64,000 bases of DNA from Deltaproteobacteria bacterium HGW-Deltaproteobacteria-6. Its GTDB lineage: Bacteria; Desulfobacterota; Syntrophia; Syntrophales; Smithellaceae. Below the pieces are notes generated by a model. The model saw only the letters and a list, made by a program, of their open reading frames with translations. It did no database searches and was not told the DNA's origin. Positions 3,304 to 30,406 of the stretch are shown one piece after another. Position numbers and translations under genes: made by a program. The stretch lies in the NCBI GenBank assembly GCA_002840435.1, contig PHAT01000008.1, positions 1 through 64,000 of the forward strand, read 5' to 3'. Positions within the stretch are counted from its first letter, which is position 1; every line of letters starts with the position of its first letter.

Positions 3304-3314
3304 GGGGATTCCCC
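3304..3314. promoter_or_regulatory. GGGGA-T-TCCCC palindrome upstream of the multicopper oxidase
   Basis: A perfect 11-base palindrome lies 63 bases upstream of the multicopper oxidase start. It matches the core of the larger element at 3371-3410, so the promoter region has two related sites about 73 bases apart, near seven helical turns. A role as an operator is inferred. Confidence 0.4.
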
Positions 3315-3370
3315 TCATAAAAAACTCTAATCCATCATGATGATAAAATACTTGATTCCAATATCTTCAA

Positions 3371-3410
3371 CAATCAGGGATTCCCCTATTCACGGCATCG
3401 ATATTTCTTA
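3371..3410 (-). promoter_or_regulatory. Shared 40-base regulatory element, copy 1 (upstream of multicopper oxidase)
   Basis: This copy begins 130 bases upstream of the multicopper oxidase start and matches the copy at 4632-4671 at 31 of 40 positions without a gap by my count. The core is AGGGA-T-TCCCC and a conserved ATTTCTTA lies at the other end (plus-strand reading). A third, weaker copy precedes the ParB-like gene. The equal length, strand and distance to the gene start suggest a transcription-factor site; the factor is unknown. Confidence 0.5.
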
Positions 3411-3458
3411 AAGACAAACTTCCAAAAGGCTTTCAGACGTTTTGTACTTTGCCGATAT

Positions 3459-3489
3459 TAAAAAAAAAAGAGCTGCCCAAAGCAGCCCC
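3459..3489 (-). terminator. Rho-independent terminator at the end of the EPS locus
   Basis: Read on the minus strand, a GCTGC / GCAGC stem with a short TTTGG loop and flanking GG/CC pairs runs directly into a stretch of ten T residues. It lies about 80 bases past the stop of the gene at 3571-4080 and would separate that transcript from the multicopper oxidase. Confidence 0.8.
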
Positions 3490-3570
3490 ACCATCATTGC
3501 ATCAAACGTCGCTAAACGCGTCCGGAAGTCTTCGCCAATCTTTACCGGCTTCACGCCGCTTATCGTTTTC

Positions 3571-4080
3571 TTAAAACAGCAGAAGACTCCGGCCGCCGAA
3601 CGTTTCGTGCAGTCCGACTTTCCATATTTCATTTTCCCTGAATAATTGAAGGACTGCCGGATGAGGGGACTTTTTAAAATGGATGTTGATTTCGGCTTTA
3701 TCACGCCCGATCATTCCGATGGTCCATTTGCTGTGTTCCAGCACCAGCCGTGGATCGAAAAACGACAGATATCCATCCCAATAAGCTTTGGATATGGCTC
3801 CCCCCTGCCGGAAATCATCTTCGATTGTTTCCCTCGGGGTAGGGCTTCCGGATTTCTTCAGTTCCCGGTATGTGGAATCAATGGTCTTATCTTTGGTCTT
3901 TTCCGTAATCTTCGTCCAGACTTTTGGATATTGTTTCTCCTTCATTGCCTGAAACAGGGATTCCGATACGGACAACACGTTATTGATTTCCATGTCCGAA
4001 GGCTGGCCGGCATACAATACGGAGGGTGACAAACAGGCCAGAACGATAAATAAAGCTGCGATGACCCTGTAATGTATCAA
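3571..4080 (-). CDS. Small exported protein of unknown function
   Basis: This 169-residue protein starts at a TTG codon. That start gives a clear signal peptide (hydrophobic residues 6-20, ending near LYAG). The mature part is short and mixed alpha/beta, beginning with a helix-rich segment around residues 30-75 and ending in strands, which recalls NTF2-like or DUF4878-like secreted domains; I could not assign a family. It is the last gene before the terminator at 3459-3489 and follows the Ala/Gly-rich gene by 52 bases, so the two are probably cotranscribed. An accessory surface or EPS role is inferred from position only. Confidence 0.7.
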   Translation of the reverse strand: MIHYRVIAALFIVLACLSPSVLYAGQPSDMEINNVLSVSESLFQAMKEKQYPKVWTKITEKTKDKTIDSTYRELKKSGSPTPRETIEDDFRQGGAISKAYWDGYLSFFDPRLVLEHSKWTIGMIGRDKAEINIHFKKSPHPAVLQLFRENEIWKVGLHETFGGRSLLLF

Positions 4081-4132
4081 GGTTCAATACTCATAGAATC
4101 AGCATCATCTTTTCAGAAGAAGTGAAAAGATT

Positions 4133-4516
4133 CTAATGTTGCACAGGTGTTCCTGACGTAGATGAAGAACCGGAACCCGCTGCCACCGCAACTGCTGCTG
4201 CCGCTGCTGCTGCAACGGCTGCACCAATTGCCAGCGTTCCTGCTCCGATTCCGGCAATACCCGCTGCTCCTGCTGCTGCCCCTGCCGCACCTGCCCCTGC
4301 CGCACCGGCTCCTGCTGCACCAGCGCCTGCTGCACCAGCGCCTGTGCCGGCTCCTGCACCTGCACCTGCTCCTGCACCTGCTCCTGCGCCCTGCGCTGCC
4401 CCGGCGCCTGCACCTGCTGCTGCGGGCTGACTATAACTCGCCTGCGGAATCCATGTCACAAAAAAAAGAAACACAATCAAGATAACCAAACGTTTCTTGC
4501 ATTTTATTTTTTCCAT
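4133..4516 (-). CDS. Ala/Gly-rich secreted protein, YjbE-like
   Basis: The start at 4516 is chosen because GGAGGGAG lies just upstream; an ATG at 4537 would add seven residues and lacks such a site. The 127-residue product has a basic N-terminus and a hydrophobic signal segment (about residues 9-28). An almost pure Ala/Gly tract follows, a hydrophobic alanine run lies near 95-112, and the tail is Ser/Thr-rich and ends GTPVQH. Low-complexity exported proteins of this kind accompany YjbH-type EPS loci; Escherichia coli YjbE in yjbEFGH is the nearest named example. It likely sits at the cell surface or in the matrix. It has its own upstream region with the shared element at 4632-4671, so it may be expressed separately from the export genes. 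The codon bias makes long spurious Leu- and Gln-rich frames overlap it. Confidence 0.75.
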   Translation of the reverse strand: MEKIKCKKRLVILIVFLFFVTWIPQASYSQPAAAGAGAGAAQGAGAGAGAGAGAGAGTGAGAAGAGAAGAGAAGAGAAGAAAGAAGIAGIGAGTLAIGAAVAAAAAAAVAVAAGSGSSSTSGTPVQH

Positions 4517-4631
4517 CACTCCCTCCTTCTCGGACAATTAATCACCTGATTCATCTGTTTCCCGTTGAATCGGCCGGACTGGGTTTGCTGCCGATCTTCG
4601 GATACAAAATATAGATAACGGATGAGATGTT

Positions 4632-4671
4632 CAATCAGGGATGTCCTTATTTAGGGTTCCGAAATTTCTTA
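4632..4671 (-). promoter_or_regulatory. Shared 40-base regulatory element, copy 2 (upstream of Ala/Gly-rich gene)
   Basis: It lies 116 bases upstream of the start at 4516, almost the same distance as copy 1 from its gene. Identity to copy 1 is 31 of 40, including an unbroken 11-base block at one end and ATTTCTTA at the other. Its palindrome is degenerate (AGGGATGTCCTTA). Confidence 0.5.
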
Positions 4672-4754
4672 CGATGTGTTCCGAAAAGGTTTAGTGCACA
4701 AGCTGTCAGGTTTTTTCAAATCAGGGAAAAACTGAGCATTGGATTTATTCTTGT

Positions 4755-7700
4755 CTAAAATAATTTTAGAACTACTGCGGTCACAACAGCCGTATTCATA
4801 AGAATCTGGGTGAAGTCGCGAAGCTCACGAAGCCAGGCTATCCGCTCGAACTGTTCCGGCACAATGATCACATCGCCGGGTTCAATATCTTTGACTTTCT
4901 CACCGAACGCGGTGAATTCCCAGCGGGACCGGGTGCCATTCCATTCCAGGAACCCTCTTCCCAGTTTTCGGGCACTGCCGTCCACTTTGATAACGAAGGT
5001 CGATGCTTCATCGGCATAGCGTGAATACCCGCCGGCCATTCCTATGTAATCCTGATAGTTCCATTGATCGCTGTAGATGTAACTGGCTTGGGAAAACACA
5101 GCGCCCATGACGGTAACGACATTGTTTCTCTGAGGAATGTGCAGTCTGTCGCCGTCCTCCAGTTCGATATCATACTCGCTTCCTTTCAGCAGGCGAACAT
5201 TCGCCAGTTGAATGGTCATTCTTCCCTGGGCTTTCAGGGCTTTCAGGGCTTCGATAAACTTCTGTTTCTGCGCCATCTCTACTTCTTTGGCTTTAATTTC
5301 CTCCGCGGACAAAGCTTTGGACACCGCCTGTGATCCGGAAACCAGCAGTTCTCTTTCCATTCTCTTGGCGATATCTTCAAGGTTCTGCTGCTGAAGCTCT
5401 TTAACGCTTTGCCGGATAAACATTGATCCCCGCAGATACGCATTGGGGGTATAGCCTCCCGCCCGCTCAATCAGCGATGAAAGTTTTTCTCCTTTGTGCA
5501 CGGCATAACGGCCCGGAAACCTGAATTCTCCGCTAATTGTAACGAATTTCATGGCGCCCCAATCGGGGATTCTCTTCACCAGCAAACGATCATAAGGTTG
5601 TAAAACCACGTTACTTACCGGATCGCCCTCCAGGGCTTTTCTTAAATTGATCACCCGCCTGTCCGTCCTGGCCGTTTTTTGTCCTTTTTCAATAACAATA
5701 GAAGAGATTTCCGCTTCATCTTCGTAGGCCGATTCCAGTATGTTTCCGCCCTTGAATACCAGATCGCGAACGGTCATCCCTTCCGTATACTGGTAACTTC
5801 CGGGCTTGGCAACTTCACCGTCAATCACCGCACTTTTCTTATAGACCTGCTCCCAGATGGAATGGATAACGATGCGGTCTTCGCCCTGCATGACCAGATT
5901 GTGCTCGGGATCTCCTTCCATGGCCCGCGCGATATTGAAATACAGCGTTTGATAAACCCTCCCGGGAGACGTTCGAATAATCTCACCTTTTTCCAGATAC
6001 GAGTCGTTGGTCAGTCCGCCGGCGCTTAAGATGACATCCTTGACGCGCATATTACCCACCAGGCCGAAACTGCAGGTGATTCTCAGCCTGTTTTCCATGC
6101 TCTGCAGACGGTCAACCAGATCCGGCCGTCCCATTCGGGCCAGTTCGCCTTTTAAAATCCGTACGCTTTCGGCAGGCGTGCGGCCATTGTTCTGAGTCTC
6201 TTCACCGATAGCTTTTGCAGCATTGGCAAGATTATAAAGCCCTTGTTTTCGCAGATCATCCTCCATGCTTTTCAAGTCCTGAAGGACCAGCTCGGCATCG
6301 ACCTTTTTCTGATCCATAATCATATCCTGTGCAACCTGACAATCGCCCCGGATTTCGCCTTCTATCAAAACAGCAGGTTTGTCTTTGAACTGCCATTGAT
6401 TAAAAACATACACCTGATCCTGTGGCTGTAATTCGATATTGCTGGCCGGATCCTTCTGAAGCAGTTTTTTCAGATTGAAAGGGATCAGCTCGCTCGTCAT
6501 TTGCGGTGGTTTGAGTCTTTTCACCAGCGCGTATTCCAGATTGGTTTCCGGCAGTAGTTCACCGGCATCCTTAATGAGATCCGAAAGCCTCATCCCCGCT
6601 TTGATTTCATATTTACCCGGCCGCTTCACATTGCCATGAAGCGTGACCACATTGACGTTCGTATCCACAATGGAAAAAATTTTAATCAGATCGGCATCCT
6701 GAAGTTTCACGGCAGCCGCCTTCTCCAGATTTTTATCATTGATATCTAAAATAACCTGCCGTTCGCTTTTGATAATCCGTTCCACCTGGATCTGCTGGGT
6801 ATAGGCGGCAGGCACAATACCTCCGGCCAGTTCGATGATGCTTTCCAGATCATGGCGGCCGCGGAGTTCATAAATGGCCGGACGTCTGACGTTTCCGGCT
6901 ATGCCCACCATCAGTTCCGTTACCGGAACAAAGACCACATCGCCCGCCATCAGCGTCACGTCTTTCGATTTATCCCCTTTTAATAAAAGGTCATACAGAT
7001 CGAAGGTCGTGATAAGCTGGCCCTTGCGTTTCAGCTGAACATGCCGCATGGAACCGATTTCCGTAGGTCCCCCGGCCAGCAGCAAAGCGTCGGTGATAGT
7101 TGCAAACGAGCCAATGGTATAAGAGCCGGGGCGGCGAACATCGCCCAGTACAAAAACCGGAATCGTCTTTAAGGAGCCCATGGAAATATCGACATTGGTC
7201 CCCACCACCTGTTCCGACTGTTTGATGATTTGTTTGGACATCTCTTCAAAAGTCATTCCGGCCACAAAAAGCGGCCCGATCTGCGGGATGGTTATTTTAC
7301 CGTCGCGGTCCACGGTAAGATCATGCTGGGCATTGATTCGCCCCCAAAGCAGCAGTTTAACTTCATCCCCCGGTCCAATCCTGTATTTCAGAGGAACAGG
7401 CCCGTCTTTTCGGTCGCTCACCACCCGGACGGCCGCCTCGGAAAAAAAATCAAATCCGAACGGCTTGAGATCGATTGCAATATCCTGATATTTGCCCGCG
7501 CTGCGGGAACGTTCGAAAAATGTTTTTTCCCTGGACATCTCTCCACTGATCTTCAGATCAACGCCCGGCGATGTTCTTTTATTCAGGTCCTTCCGGCTGT
7601 CATTCTTTTCTTTCTGTTCTAAAAGCTGCTTCCCTTTGGCCACCTCTTCCGGGGTCAGTTTTTTGAAAGCAGGGTTGGATTTTAAGGCTTCCGCGTTCAA

Positions 7701-7952
7701 CCGTCCGCCTGATTTGACAAGCTCGGTCTGGATCGCTTCTTTCTGCGCCGGCGAAAGCCTCTGATAGGCTTCGGCTTGTTGCGAGCTCATCTGCTGCATA
7801 TTCTGGCCCTGAGCCAACCCGGGTATGGGCTGTATCGTAATATTGGTCATCGGCGTACTACCCTGCGCAAATATTTCCGGTGCAATGACCGTGAACGTCA
7901 TGACTGAAATAAATAGTGTGGTAAGACCGAGACTAATGAGTCCTTTTCTCAT
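4755..7952 (-). CDS. Polysaccharide export outer-membrane protein with many SLBB domains (Wza-like)
   Basis: This 1065-residue protein exports the finished polysaccharide across the outer membrane. A signal peptide covers residues 1-29. A Gln-rich and charged linker follows to about 125. The polysaccharide export domain starts near 185 (YRIGPGDE motif). After it I count about seven or eight SLBB-type repeats of the form 'GxVxxPGxY ... GxxLxDLIxxAGG', the last near residue 970. A hydrophobic tail (about 1047-1065) could form the outer-membrane helix as in Wza. Wza itself is about 380 residues with few SLBB repeats, so this is nearly three times longer. The start overlaps the end of the Wzz gene by four bases (ATGA), implying coupled translation. 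Confidence 0.93.
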   Translation of the reverse strand: MRKGLISLGLTTLFISVMTFTVIAPEIFAQGSTPMTNITIQPIPGLAQGQNMQQMSSQQAEAYQRLSPAQKEAIQTELVKSGGRLNAEALKSNPAFKKLTPEEVAKGKQLLEQKEKNDSRKDLNKRTSPGVDLKISGEMSREKTFFERSRSAGKYQDIAIDLKPFGFDFFSEAAVRVVSDRKDGPVPLKYRIGPGDEVKLLLWGRINAQHDLTVDRDGKITIPQIGPLFVAGMTFEEMSKQIIKQSEQVVGTNVDISMGSLKTIPVFVLGDVRRPGSYTIGSFATITDALLLAGGPTEIGSMRHVQLKRKGQLITTFDLYDLLLKGDKSKDVTLMAGDVVFVPVTELMVGIAGNVRRPAIYELRGRHDLESIIELAGGIVPAAYTQQIQVERIIKSERQVILDINDKNLEKAAAVKLQDADLIKIFSIVDTNVNVVTLHGNVKRPGKYEIKAGMRLSDLIKDAGELLPETNLEYALVKRLKPPQMTSELIPFNLKKLLQKDPASNIELQPQDQVYVFNQWQFKDKPAVLIEGEIRGDCQVAQDMIMDQKKVDAELVLQDLKSMEDDLRKQGLYNLANAAKAIGEETQNNGRTPAESVRILKGELARMGRPDLVDRLQSMENRLRITCSFGLVGNMRVKDVILSAGGLTNDSYLEKGEIIRTSPGRVYQTLYFNIARAMEGDPEHNLVMQGEDRIVIHSIWEQVYKKSAVIDGEVAKPGSYQYTEGMTVRDLVFKGGNILESAYEDEAEISSIVIEKGQKTARTDRRVINLRKALEGDPVSNVVLQPYDRLLVKRIPDWGAMKFVTISGEFRFPGRYAVHKGEKLSSLIERAGGYTPNAYLRGSMFIRQSVKELQQQNLEDIAKRMERELLVSGSQAVSKALSAEEIKAKEVEMAQKQKFIEALKALKAQGRMTIQLANVRLLKGSEYDIELEDGDRLHIPQRNNVVTVMGAVFSQASYIYSDQWNYQDYIGMAGGYSRYADEASTFVIKVDGSARKLGRGFLEWNGTRSRWEFTAFGEKVKDIEPGDVIIVPEQFERIAWLRELRDFTQILMNTAVVTAVVLKLF

Positions 7953-8899
7953 TTTACAACCTCCCCATTATTCTTTTTTAATTTTTCGTAATATTCCAGA
8001 AATAGCGCGATACCGATGCCGCTGAGCAGAGAAATAACAAGCGAAAGTAATGCAATTACGCTTCGTCGCGGTTTGATCTTTTTATCCGGCATCATAGGCG
8101 GATCAATGATTTTGAAAGCAAAGTTTTCCTTAACCTCCGCCATCATCCCGTTCTCGATCTGCTGGGCGATCAAGTTATACGTTTTCTGCTTGATAAACGG
8201 ATCCGTCGTGCTTCCCAACTGCTCTTCGAGGTATTGGCGATTGGTTGCCGCAACACGTTTGACCTCACTACTCATATAATTGGTCAGCGTTACAAGGTAG
8301 TAATCCGCAATCAGAGCCGCAAGCTTCGGGTCATGGAAATCGACGGTAACCGTAATGGTATTGTCTTTAATATTCCGGTTGATTTTAACGTTCTCTTCCA
8401 GCAGCCGTAAGGCATCCCAGATATCGGGAATCTTGATGAATTTAAAAGGTTTCATTCCCAGAACGCTGTATTCCTGCTTCCAGATCCGCCGTTCTTGATC
8501 CCATTGCCCGTAAAACAATAGTGGCATGAGATTGTACTGCTCGATGATCTTCCGTCTGAGAATATTGGAATTAAGCAGGCTTACAATCTCCGAGGCATTC
8601 GCTTGTGAGGATGACGGCACACCCGGAAAGCCTCCCAGTTGCTGGGCCAGTGCCGACAACCCTGCAGTATTAGTTCCGCTATCCCTGCCCGTTACGGGAC
8701 TAATGACCGCTTTGGCCTGGTAGATGTCCGTCATCAAAAAAGACAGGATGATCATCGTAACGACGGCTGCGACCATCATAGAGCCGATCATTTTACGACG
8801 CTTCCAGATGACCTGCCCACAGTGGTAAAAGTCTATCCCATCATGATCCGGCTCGTAATCACAGGAACAGTCCCGCATCTGTTTTGTTTTTTCTGACAT
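7949..8899 (-). CDS. Wzz-type chain-length determinant protein
   Basis: The 316-residue protein has the Wzz layout: a cytoplasmic N-terminus, a first membrane segment near residues 37-56, a long periplasmic region with a coiled-coil-prone part around 190-260, a proline-containing motif near 270-280 and a second membrane segment near 283-305. It sets polymer length in Wzx/Wzy systems and docks on the export protein, whose gene overlaps its 3' end. No tyrosine-kinase domain is fused, and no separate Wzc-type kinase gene occurs in the window. The N-terminal Cys residues (CSCDYE) are unusual. Confidence 0.9.
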   Translation of the reverse strand: MSEKTKQMRDCSCDYEPDHDGIDFYHCGQVIWKRRKMIGSMMVAAVVTMIILSFLMTDIYQAKAVISPVTGRDSGTNTAGLSALAQQLGGFPGVPSSSQANASEIVSLLNSNILRRKIIEQYNLMPLLFYGQWDQERRIWKQEYSVLGMKPFKFIKIPDIWDALRLLEENVKINRNIKDNTITVTVDFHDPKLAALIADYYLVTLTNYMSSEVKRVAATNRQYLEEQLGSTTDPFIKQKTYNLIAQQIENGMMAEVKENFAFKIIDPPMMPDKKIKPRRSVIALLSLVISLLSGIGIALFLEYYEKLKKNNGEVVK

Positions 8900-9049
8900 G
8901 ATTTATTCTCCAAGATTGATGATTGTTAATACCGATAATAACCGGGCAAACGGATAATCTAATAACCTGATAACCTGAAGGTACTTAAGGTCACTGTAAT
9001 TACTCCGGTCGCAAAGGTTACGCCAAGTCATTCAAACAGTGCAAAGGAT

Positions 9050-11131
9050 CTATTGAATCATTCCCTTGTCTTTGTCGGTATAGACCCTGGCGTTTCTTCC
9101 GATGAAATCGAAAAGATTGCTGAAGTGCCCGATGTCCTGGGCCACATCCCGCGTCCAGGGAGCAACCGACGTTTTATACGATGTTTTGGAATCCTTGCCC
9201 AGGAAGGCCCGGAGAGGGATGCTGAGTGCGATTCCTTTATCATGATAACCCATATTAACCGGATCATTGAAAACAGACGTGTCCGTAATACTGTACCAGG
9301 CTGAAAGGATGATCCCGTTGAAATTCTTGGAAACCGTTATGACGGTTCCCCGATCACCCGCCAGAAACTGACCGTTTTTCAGATCGACGTTAATTTCCGC
9401 TTCAGGGATGTTCAGCCGGATATTGAAAAACCCCGTGGCATAATGATCTTTCCAATCGTCTTTTTTTAATCCGGAAATATTGTTCGGCTCCCGCTTTTTT
9501 ACGACGCTTCCGGAAAGCCCGATGAAGAATCTCCCGTCAAATAAGGGTTTTGCCACTTCCCAGTCGACGCCCGCATATTGCTCTTCCAGATAGCCGAACG
9601 AAGCTCTGCCGTAAATATCACGCGGGAATTTATGAATCTGGTTGAACAGCAATGAGCCCATTTCCAGTGTCTGCTGCTGATAGAGAACAATATCCGTTCT
9701 CACCGGCGTTGATGTCGGTGTATTGGACGACGAGATGGTGTTGACAGGATACCATAACAATCCTGCCACCAGAGTCCCCCCCTTCCAGGGTGTAAACAAA
9801 ACCTCGCCGGACAAGCCCAGCCGATAACTGAAGAAACCCGAAGGGTCATTGACAAACAATTTGAAATCAGGCTTCAACATATAATCAATATACCGCTGGT
9901 GCAGCTTTTCAACACCAAGACTTTTTAAATCTTCGGTTTTGATCTCCGACAGATAAAGAAATTCATGGGTGTTCATATTTTCACTGTAATAGGCCCGCAC
10001 GTCGGCAACATCCGCTTCAAACGCCAGAACCGGGATCCTGTTGTCGGTCAGAACGAGGCGAATTCTTCGGAAGTCAGCCGCGGGGGTTTTCGAAATGATC
10101 TGATTGACGGCCGCCAGTGCCACTCCGACGGCCTTCATGTTGTAATAATACTTGTTGTTGCCGGCTTCAATCCGCAATTCGTCGTCATGCTTCTGAATCG
10201 CAATATTGCTGAATCCGGATTCATAAAGTGCATTGGCGATGCGATACTCCAATGGACTCTTTACGATTTCTGTTCGCTCACGGTATGGATGATCGTAGAT
10301 GGGAATAAAAGGATGGCTGAAATCAACCGACATGGAAACATTGATTGCAAACTGTTCACCGCGCTGCCAGCTTAGATCGGCTTCCAGCCAACTCCATGGT
10401 TTCAGCCGGATGCCGAAATTGAAAGGGGAAGGCACACCTGCCGGGAAATATTTCTTCTGGGCGGGATCCGTCGTCTGCCGCTCATAGCGTATCGGACTGT
10501 ATTCCGCCATAAGCATCAACCAGTCCGTGGCGGCAAACTGAATCCCTGCAAAAAATTGTCCGTCTTTCCGCCATGAAGAATTGTCCGTCAGCATCTCCAT
10601 TTTAAAACTTTCTCCCGATGAGGGCAGCGGTTCTTTCCCATAGCGTCCATTGCCGAAACCAACGGAAACATCAAACGGATAAAACTGCTTACTTGCCGCG
10701 ATATACTGTGAAGGATAAACCCTGGTTCCAAACGGGTCCATAATGCCCAGAGCGAGTGCCGGCCACCATTTACCTTCGGGAAGAAACTGCCATTTCATGC
10801 CCAGACTCTTATCCTTGTAATTTCCATATGCCGGCGTTAGAGACGGTAAATCCATAACTTCTGTAATTTTTCCGTCAAACTCCAACCCTTGAACAGGACT
10901 GATAGCGCCGTAATAGTAATTATAGGGTTTGACTGTTGTAAAACCGGCTCTGAACCTGGCTTCCGGCATGACCCGTGCCGACGGAGTCTCCATAAGTCCC
11001 GTTCCTCCCCAGTTAGAAGGTCCGGTAAATGGATCGTCACCGGCATAAACAAGACTTACCTGTGTCATCGTCATAAAAAGAAAGAACAGACAGACAGCAG
11101 GAGCGATTCTGCGCTTATCTATGGATGTCAG
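9050..11131 (-). CDS. yjbH: YjbH-family exopolysaccharide outer-membrane protein
   Basis: The N-terminal motif GPSNWGGTGLMETPSARV and the length (693 residues from the chosen start) identify the YjbH family, predicted outer-membrane beta-barrel lipidless proteins needed for some EPS systems. Many aromatic, alternating segments and a closing strand-rich C-terminus fit a barrel. The first ATG (11074) leaves only an 11-residue stub before the mature protein. Reading in frame upstream to CTG at 11131 restores a complete signal peptide (basic DKRR, then a hydrophobic core ending VYA), with AAAGGGG upstream. No ATG, GTG or TTG lies in that extension. I therefore propose the CTG start; ATG 11074 remains the conservative choice. 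It lies between Wzz and an unknown exported protein. Confidence 0.85.
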   Translation of the reverse strand: MTSIDKRRIAPAVCLFFLFMTMTQVSLVYAGDDPFTGPSNWGGTGLMETPSARVMPEARFRAGFTTVKPYNYYYGAISPVQGLEFDGKITEVMDLPSLTPAYGNYKDKSLGMKWQFLPEGKWWPALALGIMDPFGTRVYPSQYIAASKQFYPFDVSVGFGNGRYGKEPLPSSGESFKMEMLTDNSSWRKDGQFFAGIQFAATDWLMLMAEYSPIRYERQTTDPAQKKYFPAGVPSPFNFGIRLKPWSWLEADLSWQRGEQFAINVSMSVDFSHPFIPIYDHPYRERTEIVKSPLEYRIANALYESGFSNIAIQKHDDELRIEAGNNKYYYNMKAVGVALAAVNQIISKTPAADFRRIRLVLTDNRIPVLAFEADVADVRAYYSENMNTHEFLYLSEIKTEDLKSLGVEKLHQRYIDYMLKPDFKLFVNDPSGFFSYRLGLSGEVLFTPWKGGTLVAGLLWYPVNTISSSNTPTSTPVRTDIVLYQQQTLEMGSLLFNQIHKFPRDIYGRASFGYLEEQYAGVDWEVAKPLFDGRFFIGLSGSVVKKREPNNISGLKKDDWKDHYATGFFNIRLNIPEAEINVDLKNGQFLAGDRGTVITVSKNFNGIILSAWYSITDTSVFNDPVNMGYHDKGIALSIPLRAFLGKDSKTSYKTSVAPWTRDVAQDIGHFSNLFDFIGRNARVYTDKDKGMIQ

Positions 11132-11187
11132 AAGCCGTTCCCCTTTTTGTTTTTAAAACAAGTAGAAAGCAAAGAGTGTTTCGGCCC

Positions 11188-11709
11188 TTACTTACGTCTG
11201 TTGACCGACCGGTGCGCCTGGATGAACCGCTCCAGCAGCACATCCGCGTCTTTCTTGATAAGATGCAGATTACCGATATTGGTCATTCCTGTAATATTGA
11301 CGGACCAGGTGTTCGCCAGCGTTTTAACTTTCGGATTGACCTCGAGCGATACGATTTGCCGAAACTCACACTTGATATCATAGGCATACCAGTATTTTTC
11401 CGTTTCATGCGTATTGATGTTGACATAAAGGACAGGCCTTCCCGCCAATTTTAGCCATTCATCGCGTGAAAGTGTTCTGATCCCCGCCGCAAAGAGTTTT
11501 TTTTCGATATTTTTCTTTATCTGTTCCGTGCTCAGTCCCGCTTTTTGAGCATATTTCTGGATATTAGGTTGAATATTCTCTACCAGAACATAAACGCCTT
11601 TTAACCCAGTCAATGTGGATCTGCTGATTTCCGAATCGTCAGCCGGAGCATAAGTTGACCAGAATAAGGCTGACAGCAATATAGCGATGACAGTTTTATA
11701 CGGAGACAT
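11188..11709 (-). CDS. Exported protein of unknown function in EPS locus
   Basis: The start at 11709 is chosen because it gives a proper signal peptide (MSPYKTVIAILLSALFW, cleavage near PADD) and follows AAAGGTG. An in-frame ATG at 11817 would add a hydrophilic tail in front of the signal. The mature protein of about 150 residues has a helical stretch (residues 40-75) followed by strands with GMTNIGNLHL near the end. It occupies the place of YjbF/YjbG in yjb operons but lacks a lipobox and I see no homology to those proteins. A periplasmic helper of the export complex is inferred from its neighbours. Confidence 0.75.
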   Translation of the reverse strand: MSPYKTVIAILLSALFWSTYAPADDSEISRSTLTGLKGVYVLVENIQPNIQKYAQKAGLSTEQIKKNIEKKLFAAGIRTLSRDEWLKLAGRPVLYVNINTHETEKYWYAYDIKCEFRQIVSLEVNPKVKTLANTWSVNITGMTNIGNLHLIKKDADVLLERFIQAHRSVNRRK

Positions 11710-17541: not shown

Positions 17542-17548
17542 GGAATAA

Positions 17549-19847: not shown

Positions 19848-19924
19848 ATGCTCTCCTGGATGAATGATCTAACCTATTTAATAAAAACATCGAGCTGAAT
19901 CCGAATCAATAGAATACCAATGCA

Positions 19925-20075
19925 TTGCATTGCCTTGTAATAAACAGTGAGCGTATTATGATTCTTTTTCTCCCAGGTAAAATCGTTTGCCCTCTTTAAA
20001 CCCCTGTCCGTCCGGCAGTATTGACAATGCATCATCATTCCGCAGATTCCATACCGCGACAGCCACATCTTCCAT
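19925..20075 (-). pseudogene. Glycosyltransferase C-terminal remnant
   Basis: About 150 bases align with the 3' end of the intact glycosyltransferase gene at 21063-22211. In one minus-strand frame they read EDVAVAVWNLRNDDALSIL, and after a frame change RGLKRANDFTWEKK then HNTLTVYYKAM. The intact protein has EDIAASIWGIWNDDEALSMM and RGLERANAFKWEE then ARNTLLVYHKAMD. The N-terminal 85 percent is missing and the piece abuts the stop of the methyltransferase gene at 20098. It marks an old duplication followed by replacement or deletion within the locus. Confidence 0.8.
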
Positions 20076-20097
20076 TTACCCGCTCATCGAAAGATAA

Positions 20098-21021
20098 TTA
20101 CACAGCTCCTAAAATATTCTCGATCCCATATATCGTACACTGCCTGGCAACAACGTTCCAACCTTCGGTTTCAATTGCCGGCACGGCCTTACGCGCCCTT
20201 ATGAAAATGTGACTTCGCAGATGGGGAACTATTGATGTAAAGGTACGCAACGTGGAAATAAGGGCCCCCTTCGTCCCGCGAAATACATTACCGTTATCCA
20301 CATAATAAGCATATTCAATTTGAAAACCTGCCATTGCCAGCAACCGAATCAACTCTCGCTTCGTATAAAGGCGGATATGAGGACGCCATAGGTCGTCATG
20401 AACAACGTGGCTGACTTCCAATGGCTCTAAATTCTGAAGGCCGACAGCCAGTTTACATATATCTCCAATGAATGAAACGCTGTTTGTCGTCAGGTACAAA
20501 ACCCCGCCCATTTTTAAGAGCCGGTTAATCCCGCATAATAATGACAATGGATACATCTGGTGCTCGATAACATCGGTGCAAATAGCGACGTCCTGTGAGT
20601 CTTGCTCAAAAGGACCGGAAAGGATATGCGGCGGCCCGGCCTTTCCGCACTTGCGCAGATCGAACTCCATCTCGAGAACCCTGATGTCTCGCGCAATCAT
20701 GGCGTTTACGAAATCGGAGGAAAAATTAAAACCAGCCGCAAGCAGTTTGTAATCCTTTGAAGGGAATAGTTTATCACGCAAAATCCGGGGCGTTGTCCCG
20801 GGGAATGCACCGTAATCACATATCGTGCATGACGGATCATGTATGTCATCAGCCAGATGACGAAACAATTCATATAACCTGCCCCGGCCTTGTCCGAGGT
20901 TGGTTCGGGGCGAAGCAACCCGACGGGAAACGGCTGACTCCACACTCACTATTTCCGTTGGCAGAGCATCTGTTTCATCTTGCCGCAGCCAATCTGAGTA
21001 TATTTTTCGGTTGAGTTTCAT
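20098..21021 (-). CDS. SAM-dependent methyltransferase-like protein (EPS locus, 2 of 4)
   Basis: The 307-residue protein has a diverged SAM-binding loop (ICDYGAFPGTTPRIL near 65), a second-strand acidic region, the VAICTDVIEHQMYP motif near 146 and LLKMGGVLYLTTNS near 167. These mark a class I methyltransferase of the type found beside glycosyltransferases. The long N-terminal extension (residues 1-60) is unrecognised. Immediately downstream lies the glycosyltransferase remnant at 19925-20075, so this gene may have arrived by recombination. The target sugar is unknown. Confidence 0.78.
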   Translation of the reverse strand: MKLNRKIYSDWLRQDETDALPTEIVSVESAVSRRVASPRTNLGQGRGRLYELFRHLADDIHDPSCTICDYGAFPGTTPRILRDKLFPSKDYKLLAAGFNFSSDFVNAMIARDIRVLEMEFDLRKCGKAGPPHILSGPFEQDSQDVAICTDVIEHQMYPLSLLCGINRLLKMGGVLYLTTNSVSFIGDICKLAVGLQNLEPLEVSHVVHDDLWRPHIRLYTKRELIRLLAMAGFQIEYAYYVDNGNVFRGTKGALISTLRTFTSIVPHLRSHIFIRARKAVPAIETEGWNVVARQCTIYGIENILGAV

Positions 21022-21062
21022 CGGTATTGTTTAAACTGTTTTTCGAAAAGGCACGTGAATAA

Positions 21063-22211
21063 TTAATCCATTGCCTTGTGATAAACCAACAGTGTGTTGC
21101 GAGCTGTTTCTTCCCACTTGAATGCATTTGCTCGTTCCAATCCCCTGGCCCGCATCATTGATAGCGCCTCGTCGTCATTCCATATCCCCCATATTGATGC
21201 GGCAATGTCCTCCGCCGACGTGGGAACAAATAACTTTCCCGCGTTGCCTGTAACTTCAGGAATCGTCGTGCAATCAGAAGCTACTACAGGGCAGCCGCAG
21301 GCCATAGCCTCAACAAGAGGTATTCCGAAGCCTTCAAACAACGATGGAAACACAAGGAGACGCGCCCCGTTATAGAGATACGGAAGGTCTGAAAATGGCA
21401 CATAACCAATGGTCTTTACAAGATTTGCCAGACCCAACTCCTGTATTTTCCGGGCAACGCTTCCATGATATTTTTTCGAGATGCCTGACAGAACCAGCAG
21501 ACCATCAAAGTTCCATTTATCCGCGAGCAGTTTCAGCGCGTCTAGCAAAACAGCATGGTTTTTGTGCGGCCATGTTGCCGCAGGATAGAACATGAAAGGT
21601 CGATCTATTCCATATGCCGTAAGCAGACGTTCCGCAGCATCGTTATTTTTCATAACCCGAAAAATCGGTGAAAATCCTGTATGCACGACATCAATCTTCT
21701 CTGGTTCAATGGAATACATCTCAATAAGGCAGTTCTTCGTAAACTGAGCGCTCACGATGACACGCGTTGCCAGTTGTGCGGACTTCTTGCACATTTTTTT
21801 TCTAAGGCGTAATTCTTTTCTGGAAAAAAACTCAGGATAAAACTCATGCTGCATATCCCAGAATGTGAGCACTGTCGGTCTGTCGATCACCAGGGGATCA
21901 ATAATCGTAAACGGATAGTGAATGACATCGCTCTGCTGGTCAGCCAATTTACTGACATAGAGATCAAAGTTCAGTAAGGTTCGCATAACTCGATGAAATA
22001 ACTTTCTCGATACCGGTTGTTCATAGCCGCGGATCGCAGCTACGGAAACTCCTCCACCGTCAAACTCACCACGGTTGACCGCAGTTGTGAAGACAGTGAA
22101 TGAATTATTGTTATGAACAACAGGAAGATGACGAACCAGCTCCCTGAAATATGTCTCCGTCCCGCCCATTTGACCGGGGTTGAAGTATAATGCATTAAGA
22201 CATACCTTCAA
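21063..22211 (-). CDS. Glycosyltransferase family 4
   Basis: The start is placed at a TTG codon (22211): it follows GGGGGCAGG at good spacing and gives the standard N-terminus KVCLNALYFNPGQMGGTETY. An ATG at 22298 would add 29 hydrophilic residues and overlap the preceding gene. From the TTG the protein has 382 residues. GGTE is the acceptor-side loop. AATWPHKNH lies near 220, and FPSLFEGFGIPLVEAMACGC near 295 holds the two catalytic glutamates. The C-terminal 50 residues are duplicated in the remnant at 19925-20075. Confidence 0.9.
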   Translation of the reverse strand: MKVCLNALYFNPGQMGGTETYFRELVRHLPVVHNNNSFTVFTTAVNRGEFDGGGVSVAAIRGYEQPVSRKLFHRVMRTLLNFDLYVSKLADQQSDVIHYPFTIIDPLVIDRPTVLTFWDMQHEFYPEFFSRKELRLRKKMCKKSAQLATRVIVSAQFTKNCLIEMYSIEPEKIDVVHTGFSPIFRVMKNNDAAERLLTAYGIDRPFMFYPAATWPHKNHAVLLDALKLLADKWNFDGLLVLSGISKKYHGSVARKIQELGLANLVKTIGYVPFSDLPYLYNGARLLVFPSLFEGFGIPLVEAMACGCPVVASDCTTIPEVTGNAGKLFVPTSAEDIAASIWGIWNDDEALSMMRARGLERANAFKWEETARNTLLVYHKAMD

Positions 22212-22257
22212 AACCTGCCCCCTTTGACGAGAAGAACTACTCCATTCACTTTGAGGC

Positions 22258-22983
22258 TCATGATTGATCTCCTTGCACGGGCTTGTGAACAACCGCAAAA
22301 AAGACGGGGTTCAGAATTGCAGGGTTCAGATTTGCATTAATTTTGCGCAGAAACCTGCTATACGCCCAATACATATTTCTTAAATGATACCTCACTCTCG
22401 TTCTGAAATTTCTTTTATACGCATCTTCAAAGCCACCGAATTTGAAGTCCACTATCCCTGCGCTGATCATAACCTGCCTTAAGCTGTGTTCAATAAATCC
22501 AACCTCATGGGTGAAATCATTATACCTGTGCAGTTGCGCATCCGGAGCTTGCATATTCGGCACTTGAATGATGATCGTTCCGCCAGGGGACAGAGCTTTA
22601 TAAAGACATTTCAAGAATGGCACGATCTCTTCTTTTTTTATGTGTTCCAAAACGTCCAGAAGCGTAATGACATCATAAGAAGACTCCCTGTCTGATAGCC
22701 ATTGAGCCGTATCTTCAACCAACAGGCAATTCAACCCCAATGAAGCACAAAATGCGACCGTGCTCGGGGATATATCGATCCCAAGATAATCCACATAACC
22801 CCATTTCTTCATGCAGGAAAGCATTTCACCGCGCCCTATTCCGATGTCCAACAGTTTAGCCGTCGTATTCGAAGGAAAGAATTTCCTGTAATTATACTCA
22901 AAACTATCAAATTTGAAAGTAGCCTGTTTATAATCGTCAAAAGCATTATCAATATAAGAATCGAAAATCTCCTTCATATTCAT
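22258..22983 (-). CDS. SAM-dependent methyltransferase (EPS locus, 3 of 4)
   Basis: The 241-residue class I methyltransferase shows LLDIGIGRGEMLSCM near residues 44-58, the acidic second-strand end GIDIS, LLDVLEHIKKEE near 108 and LSPGGTIIIQVPN near 131. This is the typical small Methyltransf_23 type that sits in polysaccharide loci and methylates sugar hydroxyls or terminates chains. It is followed after 46 bases by the TTG-started glycosyltransferase. Confidence 0.88.
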   Translation of the reverse strand: MNMKEIFDSYIDNAFDDYKQATFKFDSFEYNYRKFFPSNTTAKLLDIGIGRGEMLSCMKKWGYVDYLGIDISPSTVAFCASLGLNCLLVEDTAQWLSDRESSYDVITLLDVLEHIKKEEIVPFLKCLYKALSPGGTIIIQVPNMQAPDAQLHRYNDFTHEVGFIEHSLRQVMISAGIVDFKFGGFEDAYKRNFRTRVRYHLRNMYWAYSRFLRKINANLNPAILNPVFFAVVHKPVQGDQS

Positions 22984-23021
22984 TCCACCTCGGCACTAAA
23001 TTTATTTGAAGAAATGTTTTG

Positions 23022-23792
23022 CTATAAATCCGTTCGACGAATGCCCTGATCGTTCAAAGAGTTGCTTCGAATGAAAACATTGAATATATCCGCGATCGCA
23101 GCATGACAAATCAATCGAAAGAGAATTCCCGGCAACTGACTTCTCGTAAAAATGTGTATATACCGTCCATCAGTTATCAGGTTCAGGCCATGTCGCTTAG
23201 CGATCTCTTGCAAAGATTTAACGGTGTAGAAGCTGATATGTTGTCCATGTTCAAGCCCGAGATATCTCCAGCCGTCCGGTCCCGACAGCAATGCAGGTAC
23301 CAGTTCCGTTGAAAGGAGAATATTCGATGAGAATTTCAATATGTTCTCAATGTCATCGGAAGGATTTTCAAAATGTTCAAAGACTTCAAACGCCGTCACC
23401 AGTTCATATGGAATCGATGAATCCAGTTCAACATCGAACTGCCGGGCAAAGAGGTTCTCGCAGTACTTGTCATACCTGTAGAAATCGAAACCCTTATCAC
23501 GCATCAGTCGCACAAAAATGCCGTAACCACCGCCATAATCCAGGAATCTTGCTTTCTTGTCAAAAAACAGACCTATAACCGCTCTCGTTACCCTGGAGAG
23601 ATAAATGTTGCGGCTGAACAGTCCCACATCGAGATTGCTGATTGCTGATGAATAGGCCTCTGCAAGCCAGTATGGTTTTTCCGTCTGAATGAAGCCGCAG
23701 CTATTACAACGAAAATAATTGACGTTGAATTTACTAAGCAGAAATGCCTTGCCAAAATATTTGCACGCATGGTCACACACCTTGCATCTCAT
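23022..23792 (-). CDS. Zinc-ribbon SAM methyltransferase (EPS locus, 4 of 4)
   Basis: The 256-residue protein starts with two CxxC pairs (CKVC at residue 3 and CNSC near 29) forming a putative zinc ribbon. A class I methyltransferase core follows: FLDYGGGYGIFVRLM near 83, a shortened second strand (FYRYD), and TAFEVFEHFENP near 133. Zinc-ribbon methyltransferases of this kind act in sugar C-methylation or in EPS decoration. It lies 18 bases after the flippase gene, so the two are probably read together. Confidence 0.85.
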   Translation of the reverse strand: MRCKVCDHACKYFGKAFLLSKFNVNYFRCNSCGFIQTEKPYWLAEAYSSAISNLDVGLFSRNIYLSRVTRAVIGLFFDKKARFLDYGGGYGIFVRLMRDKGFDFYRYDKYCENLFARQFDVELDSSIPYELVTAFEVFEHFENPSDDIENILKFSSNILLSTELVPALLSGPDGWRYLGLEHGQHISFYTVKSLQEIAKRHGLNLITDGRYIHIFTRSQLPGILFRLICHAAIADIFNVFIRSNSLNDQGIRRTDL

Positions 23793-23810
23793 ATTCTTGA
23801 GTCGCCATTT

Positions 23811-25166
23811 CTATTCATGGGAAAGAATCCTGTTGTTAAGGAATGTATATGGCACAACAACCAGCAGAACATAAGACCCTATCATCGCCATGAGCAGTCC
23901 GTTTACCCCGAATTTGCCGACAAAGAATATTTTTGCAGCTATTGAAACAATGGTAAAGCCGGTTGCAATAATCAACTGCAGTCGTATGGCATTCACACCG
24001 TTCAAAAACATGGAGTAGGTAACCCCCAATCCTTTGAGAACCATCCAGCCTGCACATAACGCTACAAGCATAAAGGGCAATACGAAATCAGAGCCCACCC
24101 ATAGCGCAAAAATCGGCTTATAAAACAGAACCAGCATTCCTGCTGCACATACTGTAAAAATCAGTGTAAGAATCATGGACCTGTTTAAGGTCTGTCTTAC
24201 CCACAGATGGTCTCCACGTGCATTTGCTTCGCCATAAGCAGGCCACAAAGGGGTGAAAGCTATAGCGATAATTATCAAAACACCCTCAAAGAGCCTGGAA
24301 ACAATGGAGTATTGCGTTACTGATTCGGCGCCGAGCATTCTGGCAAGAATAATGTTATCGGAAGCAAAAGCAATAGACACCGCCAACTGCAATACGAAAA
24401 AAATCAACCCTCCATGAAGAATACGTTTCATCCCCTTTGCAGAAATATCAGAGAAGCGGGGCAGAAGATCACGACGCCGCACAAAGAAAAAAATTATTCC
24501 ATTAGCCAAAAGTGAAACGATGGGGGAACCTGCCATTGCCATAACAAGCCACATCAAATCAGCTTTCACATAAATGACAAACAGGATAGACAGGACACTC
24601 AAAATACTCCCGATGGTTTGCCATAGACTGCTCCAAAATCCTTGTTGCATGCCCATTTGAACTCGTTGTACTATACCGGCAGGCACACCTACGGCAAAGC
24701 AGACCATAAACGAAGCCACGGCTGGCCCGGTCTCCCGGATTGCTGCTGCGGACTTGACATTAAAGATATTATTCCACGGAATCAACGGATATATAGCAAA
24801 AAATACTAATAAAATAAGTATCATTAATAAAGTAAGGATTAATAATGCATTTGTTATATGCGATCGAATCGCGCCAATGTCATCTTTGCCATAAGCCTCC
24901 GTTATTGCATTCATCAGCCCATTACCTACTCCAAAGTCGGCAAATACCATCATTGCAATAACGGAGCTAATGGTCATCCAAAGGCCATAGCGTTCAGCAC
25001 CGAGGTAGTTGAGGGTTAGGGGAACGGTTATCACAGCAGCGACAAACGATATGACCTTAGCTGCACCGGAAGAAAGTGCCGTGAGAGTTATTCTTCTGTG
25101 GCGTTCCCTTGCTCTATCTTCGGAAGTCCCGGTATCGATCCCTGTTAATGTTAGCCGCGTCTTCAA
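23811..25166 (-). CDS. Wzx-type polysaccharide flippase
   Basis: The 451-residue protein has about twelve to fourteen hydrophobic segments in the MATE/PST arrangement and begins its first helix with SSGAAKVISFVAAVITVPLT, characteristic of oligosaccharide flippases. It moves the lipid-linked repeat unit across the inner membrane. The start is a TTG at 25166 with AGGATAAG some twelve bases upstream; no ATG is available before the first helix. It is the first gene of the EPS run on this strand, so the main promoter should lie in 25167-25418. Confidence 0.92.
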   Translation of the reverse strand: MKTRLTLTGIDTGTSEDRARERHRRITLTALSSGAAKVISFVAAVITVPLTLNYLGAERYGLWMTISSVIAMMVFADFGVGNGLMNAITEAYGKDDIGAIRSHITNALLILTLLMILILLVFFAIYPLIPWNNIFNVKSAAAIRETGPAVASFMVCFAVGVPAGIVQRVQMGMQQGFWSSLWQTIGSILSVLSILFVIYVKADLMWLVMAMAGSPIVSLLANGIIFFFVRRRDLLPRFSDISAKGMKRILHGGLIFFVLQLAVSIAFASDNIILARMLGAESVTQYSIVSRLFEGVLIIIAIAFTPLWPAYGEANARGDHLWVRQTLNRSMILTLIFTVCAAGMLVLFYKPIFALWVGSDFVLPFMLVALCAGWMVLKGLGVTYSMFLNGVNAIRLQLIIATGFTIVSIAAKIFFVGKFGVNGLLMAMIGSYVLLVVVPYTFLNNRILSHE

Positions 25167-25418
25167 ATGATATACTTATCCTGAAAAGGGAATGCCGCCA
25201 CTGGTATATTTTCTGTATGGCTTTTTAGCATGCAACAATCAATCTGCCTGCTATGCGTTAATTTGATTTATTATTGAGAAATATATACATTTTATTCTAT
25301 ATTAAAGAAAATATAACCGATGCCGGAGCTCCGGCATATCCACCTTTTGAAAATTATTTACGAAATGAGTGATGATTCGGATTTTTTATTCATACCATCT
25401 TAGTTTTGCTCCCATCTT
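25167..25418 (-). promoter_or_regulatory. AT-rich region expected to hold the EPS operon promoter
   Basis: These 252 bases separate the ParB-like gene from the first EPS gene and encode nothing. They are strongly AT-rich around 25255-25315 and contain the palindrome at 25320-25337. A precise promoter cannot be set by eye. Confidence 0.45.
25320..25337. repeat. Perfect 18-base palindrome
   Basis: The sequence ATGCCGGAG followed by its exact reverse complement has no loop, so it fits a protein-binding operator better than a hairpin. No T-run follows on either strand, which argues against an intrinsic terminator. It lies about 82 bases past the ParB-like stop and 154 bases upstream of the EPS operon start. 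Confidence 0.6.
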
Positions 25419-26285
25419 TTACCGGCGTTGAGCCGAACGAGCCAGGAAGGAATCAATCCAGTCTCTGAGATTAATAAGGGCGTCCTTAAAACCGGAATCG
25501 TCTTCCGCTTCGCAGTGTGTTGCATCAATGCTGTTCAGTTTGTCCATGATCTTGCCGGCCATAAGGACTATGGCTTCGAGGGCTTTGGTGTCAAACGTAC
25601 TCCTTTTCTTCGATGTTTTTCTGCCCCTGTTCATTTTTTCTTTATACAATCCATAGGCAGTGAACATTGCTCTTTCCTGCTTCTTCCGGGCAATGTCGAT
25701 TAAGACATTTTTGGATACCGTACGGTTACCACGACAATCATCGCGAATCTGCTGAGGTAAACGGTTGATCAGAAGGATATCGGAAATGGTGGTTCGCGCC
25801 TTGCCGATAACGGCACTGAGCTGCTCATGGGTGTATTTCTGCTGATTCATGAGTCTCTGCAAGGCCTCCGCTTCCTCCACCGCCGTCAAGTCCTGACGCA
25901 GCAGATTCTCAATCAGAGATATTTCCGAGGCATTGCCGTCGATGAAAAGAGCCGGTACCGAACTCAGCCCCGCCTTGCGTGCAGCAATGATTCGTCGTTC
26001 TCCAGCAACAATAACCAGATTACCGTCTTCATGAAGGCGAAAAAGAACAGGTTCCAGAATACCATGCTTCCTGATGGAGGCGGTCAGTTCTTCCAGCGCG
26101 TGAGCATCCAATACCTTGCGCGGCTGATCAGGATCAGCCAGGAGATCATTGAGTGAAAGATTATAAAGTATGCCCCGCTCATATACGATATCGGTGATGC
26201 CCGTCTTTTCCGGTGAGTCCACAGAACATTCCTCCATATTACTTTTCTTTTTGGTTGGAGATGCCATTGTTATTGTTTTTTTCAT
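25419..26285 (-). CDS. Orphan ParB/Spo0J-like protein
   Basis: The 288-residue protein has a ParB N-terminal nuclease-like domain around residues 40-130: DPDQPRKVLD, then GERRIIAARKAG, then LIENLLRQDLTAVEEAEAL, followed by a helix-turn-helix region (THEQLSAVIGKARTTISDIL). These include the GERRxxA box that binds CTP in ParB. No ParA ATPase gene lies nearby and the C-terminal dimer domain is not the usual one; instead there is a basic linker (MNRGRKTSKKRS) and an acidic tail. It may be a regulator rather than a chromosome partition protein. It is read in the same direction as the EPS genes and ends about 250 bases before them. Confidence 0.85.
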   Translation of the reverse strand: MKKTITMASPTKKKSNMEECSVDSPEKTGITDIVYERGILYNLSLNDLLADPDQPRKVLDAHALEELTASIRKHGILEPVLFRLHEDGNLVIVAGERRIIAARKAGLSSVPALFIDGNASEISLIENLLRQDLTAVEEAEALQRLMNQQKYTHEQLSAVIGKARTTISDILLINRLPQQIRDDCRGNRTVSKNVLIDIARKKQERAMFTAYGLYKEKMNRGRKTSKKRSTFDTKALEAIVLMAGKIMDKLNSIDATHCEAEDDSGFKDALINLRDWIDSFLARSAQRR

Positions 26286-26975
26286 ATAATTTATTGCTGA
26301 ATATCGGCTGATACAGCTCCGCCCTCTGAGTTACATATTAGAGATTTTAGGGATGGTATGTTGCGCGAATGCAGACAATTATTGAACCATGTTTCAGAAA
26401 GGAGCTTACCCGTATTAAAAAATGCTCCTTGCTATCCCGGCAAAAAAACAGCGGGGATAACGTCCTATGATCAATCTTTGGAGGTATTTTAAAGATGTGA
26501 AGAATGTTTTTCTATCGGGTGATCCCTTATTTGCCATAAGGGATTCCCTTATTTACTATCGGGTATTATCTGATTAAATCTAACTTTATGACCGCATGAT
26601 TTGATCCAAACCGTATCAACAACAAGAGCTCACAACACAGGTAAAATATTCATCAGACCATCTATGCCTCAAAATAATCGTTTACAAATTATCAATAAAT
26701 AGATTAAAAATGGCAGTAACTAATGAATTTAATGATATTATGCGTTTTATTATAATATTTAAGCCGCTGGATAGTCGCCGAAAACATTGATTAATGTATT
26801 TTGTTTGATATAAAGAAATAAAGTAGATCCTTTTTATAAAGTTCCCGTGGCGTCTACCGATTTAATTACTGAATGGGAATGCCCTCGCAGAAAGGCAGGT
26901 AAATTTCGCCTTGTATCAAAGTCAAATTTCAGCGACTGATGGATATCCGGAATTTCCTGGATCAGCTTATTCCAC
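26286..26975. other. 690-base intergenic region with regulatory repeats
   Basis: No credible gene is present; possible reading frames are short and lack ribosome sites. It separates the minus-strand ParB/EPS block from the plus-strand secretion block, so it should hold divergent promoters. The part at 26640-26830 is very AT-rich. The repeats at 26523-26573 lie inside it. Confidence 0.6.
26523..26573 (-). promoter_or_regulatory. Shared regulatory element, copy 3, with tandem half-site
   Basis: A perfect 17-base palindrome (ATAAGGGA-T-TCCCTTAT) is present at 26537-26553. TCCCTTATTT occurs twice, at 26523 and 26545, a spacing of 22 bases or two helical turns. ACCCGATAG, read on the minus strand, flanks both sides. 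The core and the following TTATTTA match copies 1 and 2. It lies about 250 bases upstream of the ParB-like gene, in the same orientation as in the other two promoters. Confidence 0.5.
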
Positions 26976-30365: not shown

Positions 30366-30406
30366 TGATAACCGGCCCGACAATATTAATGCAGGTATGT
30401 CCATCC

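Follow-up and report, generated by a model that had tools for sequence, protein, structure and literature searches.

The multicopper oxidase gene and a gene for an Ala/Gly-rich protein in a 64,000-nucleotide stretch of DNA from Deltaproteobacteria bacterium HGW-Deltaproteobacteria-6 (Smithellaceae; contig PHAT01000008.1, positions 1 to 64,000; the whole stretch is called the window here) are each preceded by a copy of the same 40-base element, which is followed at a fixed distance by a −10 hexamer. The same arrangement recurs in other genomes of the order, mostly outside open reading frames (ORFs) and in front of genes that include those of PEP-CTERM-like, export, efflux-type and stress-type proteins. 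The full mechanism proposed, a class II sigma-70 switch worked by the family of a NarL-type response regulator encoded in the window, is regarded as moderately probable. The two elements and their genes are laid out as follows.

Positions 3345 to 3411, minus strand: promoter element of the multicopper oxidase gene, with the distal half-site at 3396-3410, the palindrome at 3371-3390, the −35 (TTGTTG) at 3368-3373 and the −10 (TATTTT) at 3345-3350.
Positions 2 to 3241, minus strand: multicopper oxidase gene, extending past the window start (PF07731, 40.2 bits against a cut-off of 20.4).
Positions 3304 to 3314, no strand assigned: GGGGATTCCCC in the oxidase leader.
Positions 4606 to 4672, minus strand: promoter element of the Ala/Gly-rich protein gene, with the distal half-site at 4657-4671, the palindrome at 4632-4651, the −35 (TTGAAC) at 4629-4634 and the −10 (TATTTT) at 4606-4611.
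Positions 4133 to 4516, minus strand: Ala/Gly-rich protein gene, called as an ORF (ATG at 4516, reading frame open to 4537).

The copies at 3371-3410 and 4632-4671 are identical at 31 of 40 positions without a gap, exactly as had been reported in the sequence-only reading of the window from which this analysis started. This value lies above the best partner identity reached by 1500 40-mers of the shuffled window (at most 28 of 40), and among 1500 40-mers of the real window the best partner reached up to 30 of 40, in two cases. The distances to the start codons given in that reading, 130 base pairs (bp) for the oxidase and 116 bp for the Ala/Gly-rich protein, agree with the ATGs at 3241 and 4516; the genes served by these two sites and by a third one, considered below, are all on the minus strand. 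A matrix of the palindrome only scored its two best sites at 28.5 and 27.1 bits, whereas 20 shuffled windows gave up to 25.2 bits, and with such a margin it is the full element that carries the significance. Allowing at most one mismatch, the bare core GGGATTCCC showed no enrichment in the window (18 matches versus 25.8 expected). The GGGGATTCCCC copy that the same reading had listed at 3304 is indeed present, but its score (4.8 bits with model R1, described below) places it outside the element. Judged from their sequence, the copies at 3371-3410 and 4632-4671 are real predicted promoter elements.

The grammar of the element was derived from 54 aligned rows, which include one mis-anchored ParB row and some near-duplicates. 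The consensus order is a distal half-site TMAGGATTTTCGAAG, a palindrome AATCAGGATATTCCTGATTG and a −10. The palindrome is 20 bp long, is centred near −42 and has as its last bases the TTG of the −35, and the distal site is located 22 bp further upstream. A −10 starting with TA occurred at offset 40, which is 20 bp past the palindrome and its −35 TTG, in 42 of the 54 rows, compared with 2 to 12 rows at the 29 other offsets counted. Both window copies fit this order, each with TATTTT in the expected place. A palindrome over the −35, one or more close-packed upstream sites and a sigma-70 −10 at a fixed distance are expected of the NarL-family class II layout, and these three features were found. 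The layout predicted for the element is a sigma-70 promoter with a class II activator site.

Three models were used to follow the element through the 155 genomes of the order (a search by class likewise gives 155). R1 is a sequence-only model of ten elements, three from the window, one from genome G057 and six from family f21. R2 was built from 43 of the 47 rows that remained after removal of near-duplicates, N-containing rows and the mis-anchored ParB row. R3 consists of 33 elements, none of them from the family of the window; it omits seven more window-family rows together with three that aligned less cleanly (L218, L224 and L240). When R3 was run over the whole of the window's own genome, the elements before the oxidase (E 2.0e-7) and the Ala/Gly-rich protein (E 6.3e-7) were the sole matches below 0.07. 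With the same model, G057 yielded nine matches (E≤1.2e-4), of which seven stay below 1e-5; the elements before its oxidase gene and its Ala/Gly gene are among them. The two oxidases are 43.5% identical over 496 columns and the two Ala/Gly-rich proteins 52% identical, the latter in low-complexity sequence with filters off. The oxidase gene adjoins the ParB-like gene in G057, whereas in the window it lies at the opposite end of the cluster. Both genes keep the element in spite of this different arrangement; it has stayed with the gene. That the oxidase and the Ala/Gly-rich protein share a regulator is thus a well-supported prediction.

Across the order, strong R1 matches outside the training set were found in several families, and R2 detected the element in 43 of the 155 genomes at E≤0.01 and in 23 at E<1e-5. 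The bare palindrome with two mismatches was present in 60 of the 155 genomes, against 6 for its backwards control; it was discarded as too loose a genome marker when taken alone, 21 of 30 loci lying inside some ORF of at least 90 amino acids. A strict pattern run over a named genome collection, which may omit records near the window's genome and so says little about spread, returned two records: a candidate division KSB1 metagenome-assembled genome (MAG; L272, 37.9 bits) and an unnamed MAG (L271, 23 bits), whose match reaches only model position 50. The L272 element (7040-7105, plus strand) is followed 145 bp further on by an ORF whose start looks signal-like; it may reflect either spread beyond the order or misbinning.

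Random placement in the genome or a lack of conservation had been named in advance as the outcomes that would speak against the element, and neither was what was seen. R1 gave 76 matches at E<1e-3, ten of which are the training elements. Among the 48 of the remaining 66 that were examined for placement, 45 were centred outside ORFs of at least 100 amino acids and only 3 inside, while random positions in the same loci fell inside ORFs in 78% of cases and outside in about 22%. Six further matches were fetched, two of which lie inside an ORF of at least 120 amino acids (L152, L169) and four of which are intergenic (L129, L142, L151, L157); together these make up 54 of the 66. Five downstream genes encode proteins with PEP-CTERM-like tails, two of them passing a curated cut-off (L205 with TIGR02595, L213 with NF038125) and three matching PEP-CTERM or exosortase-type models below it (L220, L224, L230). 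Others encode polysaccharide export proteins (L214 by Pfam; L219, below the TIGR03027 cut-off), an FKBP isomerase (L209, with L215 looking alike), a CDGSH protein (L208, with L212 alike) and also CsbD (L226), YtxH (L234, with L236 alike) and a BON protein (L240). In the G085/G038 pair, the element precedes a YtkA-like gene that is followed by a gene resembling an outer-membrane efflux factor (L203, with L204 alike). Behind the training elements, PEP-CTERM-like tails were recognised by eye at L140, L141, L154 and L156, none over cut-off, and two RTX proteins were found at L139 and L155. Many other matches precede genes that were left unnamed.

The third site lies before a ParB-like gene and is related to the element in a different manner.

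Positions 26486 to 26577, minus strand: promoter with three units, serving the ParB-like gene and probably also the polysaccharide run that follows it, recognised from the array, the −10 spacing and G057; proximal unit at 26512-26533, middle unit with a perfect 17-bp palindrome at 26534-26555, distal unit at 26556-26577, −10 (TAAAAT) at 26486-26491.
Positions 25419 to 26285, minus strand: ParB-like gene (ParB_N and ParB HTH), at the head of a series of 17 same-strand ORFs of at least 100 amino acids, itself included.
Positions 4755 to 25166, minus strand: polysaccharide run, with no strong element inside; its members include flippase-like, glycosyltransferase and polymerase-like proteins, a TIGR03013 XrtA/PEP-CTERM glycosyltransferase, YjbH, Wzz and an SLBB export protein.

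In the sequence-only reading, 26534-26573 had been presented as a third copy of the 40-base element, with a palindrome and a tandem half-site 22 bases away. The palindrome, ATAAGGGAATCCCTTAT, was confirmed in the middle unit, and the tandem structure extends to three 22-bp units starting at 26512, 26534 and 26556. The 40-base match did not survive. It amounts to only 25 and 26 of 40 identities with the other two copies, and a best partner of at least 25 of 40 was found for 169 of 1500 shuffled 40-mers, which is to say that the match is at chance level. Models R2 and R3 gave no full-element match at the array either, the middle unit reaching E 0.5 with R3. The TAAAAT −10 stands at the canonical distance from the unit at 26512, and this spacing indicates that the equivalent of the 40-base element is formed by the units at 26512 and 26534, and not by 26534-26573. 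G057, whose ParB-like protein is 68% identical, carries three 22-bp units in the same place with changed letters and a TATAAA −10 at the identical offset. The array is therefore best described, from its sequence, as related to the element by architecture and not by a full-element match. The proposal that one regulator serves all three genes is consequently upheld for the oxidase and the Ala/Gly-rich protein by the independent-model match and by G057, whereas for the ParB-like gene it is backed by the 22-bp array and the −10 spacing and goes without the 40-base match.

Several observations concern the surroundings of this gene. A leader sequence, AGAGGGCGGAGCTGTATCAG, lies directly before the ParB-like start (26308-26327, minus strand); it is conserved at 19 of 20 positions in G057 and at 16 of 20 in locus L075 (G135), and at 12 of 20 at most in the other paralogue loci checked. 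We take it to resemble the ops element of RfaH-type antitermination, and it could be a polysaccharide-operon leader. The ParB-like family occurs in 22 of the 155 genomes (E≤1e-32) as dispersed paralogues, with as many as 11 in a single genome and some containing stop codons; 12 of the 18 paralogue loci tried could be resolved, several of which lie, by eye, beside polysaccharide-type genes and others not. Divergent from the array, 26976-27344 (plus strand) encodes a small protein without a Pfam match, and a similar sequence occupies the same place in G057.

Two candidate binders had been proposed, a response regulator and the ParB-like protein itself. The first of them fared better.

Positions 31075 to 31779, plus strand: NarL-type response regulator (receiver and GerE domains; likely ATG at 31129), the best candidate binder.

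Relatives of this regulator were counted at 250 bits or more, with at most 18 first-look candidates scored per genome and all candidates scored in nine genomes. They occur in 27 of the 155 genomes: in 14 of the 23 strongly motif-positive genomes (R2 E<1e-5) compared with 13 of the 132 others (p 2.5e-7), and in 12 of 21 compared with 13 of 132 when the own genome and G057 are left out (p 3e-6). G085 holds a regulator fragment whose DNA-binding end is 68% identical. Further, regulator and element are no more than about 10 kb apart in 7 of the 27 regulator-bearing genomes, where 0.97 were expected (p 7e-5): G000, the window's own genome, by virtue of its ParB array, G057, G081, G089, G053, G100 and, by R1 only, G102. 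Without the own genome and G057, five linked genomes remain (p 0.002). The G057 regulator is 92% identical and located about 5 kb from the ParB-like gene, as in the window. The regulator adjoins a histidine kinase in several relatives; in G081, a kinase and the regulator follow about 6 to 8 kb behind an element that precedes a Wza-type export gene, and this kinase scores highest, among kinase families, as MctS, then as UhpB and NarQ, all below cut-off. Because of this co-occurrence and gene linkage the regulator is favoured over the ParB-like protein, and the NarL-type family of 31075-31779 is the predicted activator at somewhat better than even odds.

A number of observations weigh against this assignment. 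A close relative of the regulator is missing from eight of the 23 motif-positive genomes (G041, G055, G078, G087, G091, G135, G142 and G149), in all of which every first-look candidate was scored; the best reaches 134-165 bits in seven of them and none was found at 1e-15 in G091. Genome completeness of 84-100% does not explain all eight misses. Conversely, the regulator occurs in 13 genomes that lack a strong element; a weaker element (E≤0.01) is present in six of these. Beside the window regulator no kinase was found, and no element stands before it. Three of the seven linkages depend on weak elements (G053, 5.4e-4; G100, 4.7e-4; G102, R1 only), the G102 one lying where a receiver-like ORF ends and having no clear target, and another rests on the ParB array, which is part of the R1 training set. 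Most genomes consist of many contigs and are possibly misbinned, and related genomes are not independent, which makes the p values optimistic.

The neighbourhood of the regulator has features of its own. Upstream of it in the window, 27645-30853 (plus strand) encodes an MshE-type ATPase, a T2SSF protein and a pilin-like protein, and relatives in G053, G150, G154 and G134 have, by eye, T2SSF-like and/or pilin-like neighbours. YtkA, OEP, CusB-type and AcrB-type efflux genes lie beside the regulator at 31843-37900 (minus strand). Regulators 80-89% identical to that of the window are found in other families (G134:C243, G150:C88 and G154:C78), either by gene transfer or on misbinned contigs. Small stand-alone kinase-like domains and receiver-only fragments were seen by eye near the regulator relatives of G100 and G102 (L303, L305).

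The genomes in which motif and regulator part company are also the argument for another explanation, according to which the architecture and the regulon are as described but are served by a different, unrecognised transcription factor, the NarL-type regulator merely sitting in the same surface-gene clusters. The eight motif-positive genomes without a close relative and the 13 with the regulator and no strong element speak for it. Contrary to this, co-occurrence and linkage of the regulator are strong and the architecture fits NarL-family activators, so that another factor is considered an unlikely, although serious, alternative to the NarL-type regulator.

Operators of ParB, Noc and KorB consist of palindromic units before a ParB-family gene, and the array in the window resembles them. 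It is conceivable that the ParB-like protein binds the palindromes in the manner of KorB or Noc, controlling its own operon together with the two neighbouring genes; the palindromic units before its own gene, with an array in G057 too, are in line with this. The protein, however, does not clearly track the element. It was detected (E≤1e-32) in 6 of the 23 motif-positive genomes and in 16 of the 132 others (p 0.08, or 0.28 without the own genome and G057) and all four f21 genomes lack it at this level. The motif-rich G038 has a truncated copy, 52% identical, where a contig breaks off (E 5.3e-29); counting it would raise the first figure to 7 of 23. Moreover, among the tabulated loci, two of which lack upstream DNA, a 17-bp palindrome stands upstream only of the window's gene. 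Its distribution disfavours the ParB-like protein as the general binder, and this explanation is held to be very improbable.

Chance similarity or a dispersed mobile repeat could be suspected from the frequent location of the bare palindrome (at most two mismatches) within ORFs and from the unenriched GGGATTCCC core in the window. The full element, in contrast, lies inside ORFs in only 3 of 48 cases, keeps a fixed −10 spacing and precedes related targets in G057, which leaves little room for such an origin.

The presence of PEP-CTERM-like proteins among the targets recalls the PrsK/PrsR system, in which an upstream element is likewise common to genes for PEP-CTERM-type surface proteins (PMC1569441). 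Motif 1 as published for PEP-CTERM genes has TTTACA at its end and a GG/GC promoter after it (PMC1569441), whereas the element described here has a different motif and a sigma-70 type −10 and −35. PrsR exceeds its cut-off in 21 of the 155 genomes (G017 among them, which reaches it only with neighbouring frames); of these, G057 alone belongs to the 23 motif-positive genomes, with no association either way (p 0.32); its best score in the own genome is 438.8 against a cut-off of 502.6, ten candidates having been scored per genome. Within 90 bases downstream of the element, GG-N10-GC occurs in 6 of 54 rows compared with 7.7 in shuffles, and at least 8 of 11 sigma-54 consensus letters are found in 5 rows compared with 3.2, so that neither is clearly enriched. 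The distribution of PrsR and the sigma-54 promoter counts disfavour a known sigma-54 PrsK/PrsR site, an explanation to which almost no credence is given. For the PEP-CTERM regulator DVUA0057 of Desulfovibrio vulgaris, the legend of a network figure marks sigma-54 promoters and states that the binding motifs of those regulators had not been validated (PMC3333781).

The proposed NarL-type switch has parallels elsewhere. RcsB is a NarL-type regulator, and the core sequence bound by DevR presumably differs from that of the element. When the window regulator was scored as RcsB, it reached 81.9 bits with NF008098 against a cut-off of 235 (only this regulator was scored, and RcsA was not sought). At 1e-20 the window regulator matched 8 chains, a solved DevR structure among them. 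DevR/DosR of mycobacteria belongs to the NarL subfamily, and its promoters have close-packed sites of which the proximal one lies over the −35, as in the element (PMC3029386). The targets of DevR/DosR differ from those found here, and the NarL-type binder of the element is a candidate only. The RcsAB box of enteric bacteria has the core TaAGaatatTCcta (PMC4325325), which resembles the element core TCAGGATATTCCTGA, and exopolysaccharide genes are targets in both cases (PMC5829831). It differs in that the element has a longer palindrome and a second site 22 bp upstream. Given a core like the RcsAB box and a layout like that of DevR promoters, the element is called a variant that would work like a NarL-family class II switch. 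No description of this element or of a related PEP-CTERM switch was found in the accessible open-licence PMC literature.

In conclusion, the element is proposed to be the regulatory core of a sigma-70 promoter that a dimeric activator would turn on. A first dimer would sit on AATCAGGATATTCCTGATTG, near −42, overlapping the −35 TTG, and a second on the degenerate site 22 bp, or two helical turns, upstream, with a third site available at the ParB-like promoter. In the manner of class II, the activator would contact RNA polymerase and switch on surface and envelope genes: in the own genome those of the oxidase, of the Ala/Gly-rich protein and of the polysaccharide run headed by the ParB-like gene, and in its relatives those of PEP-CTERM-like proteins, export proteins, metal-efflux-type proteins and stress proteins. 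The existence of the element, where it lies, its spacing and −10 position, its spread and the types of its targets were observed; activation, the class II contact, the identity of the regulator and the signal are the steps that we infer. The chances are evenly balanced that surface genes in the order form a regulon independent of PrsR, in which a NarL-type two-component system acting through tandem 22-bp sites at sigma-70 promoters would co-switch PEP-CTERM, exopolysaccharide, copper-type oxidase, efflux and general stress genes with a logic comparable to that of Rcs or DosR. The described route of PEP-CTERM activation is the sigma-54 PrsK/PrsR one, and the 2006 paper describing it noted that further regulators and DNA motifs awaited discovery (PMC1569441). 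The element would supply such a motif, together with a defined promoter grammar, a list of targets and a candidate regulator that can be tested, in relatives of the window's organism, and surface and biofilm control in these bacteria would become directly testable.

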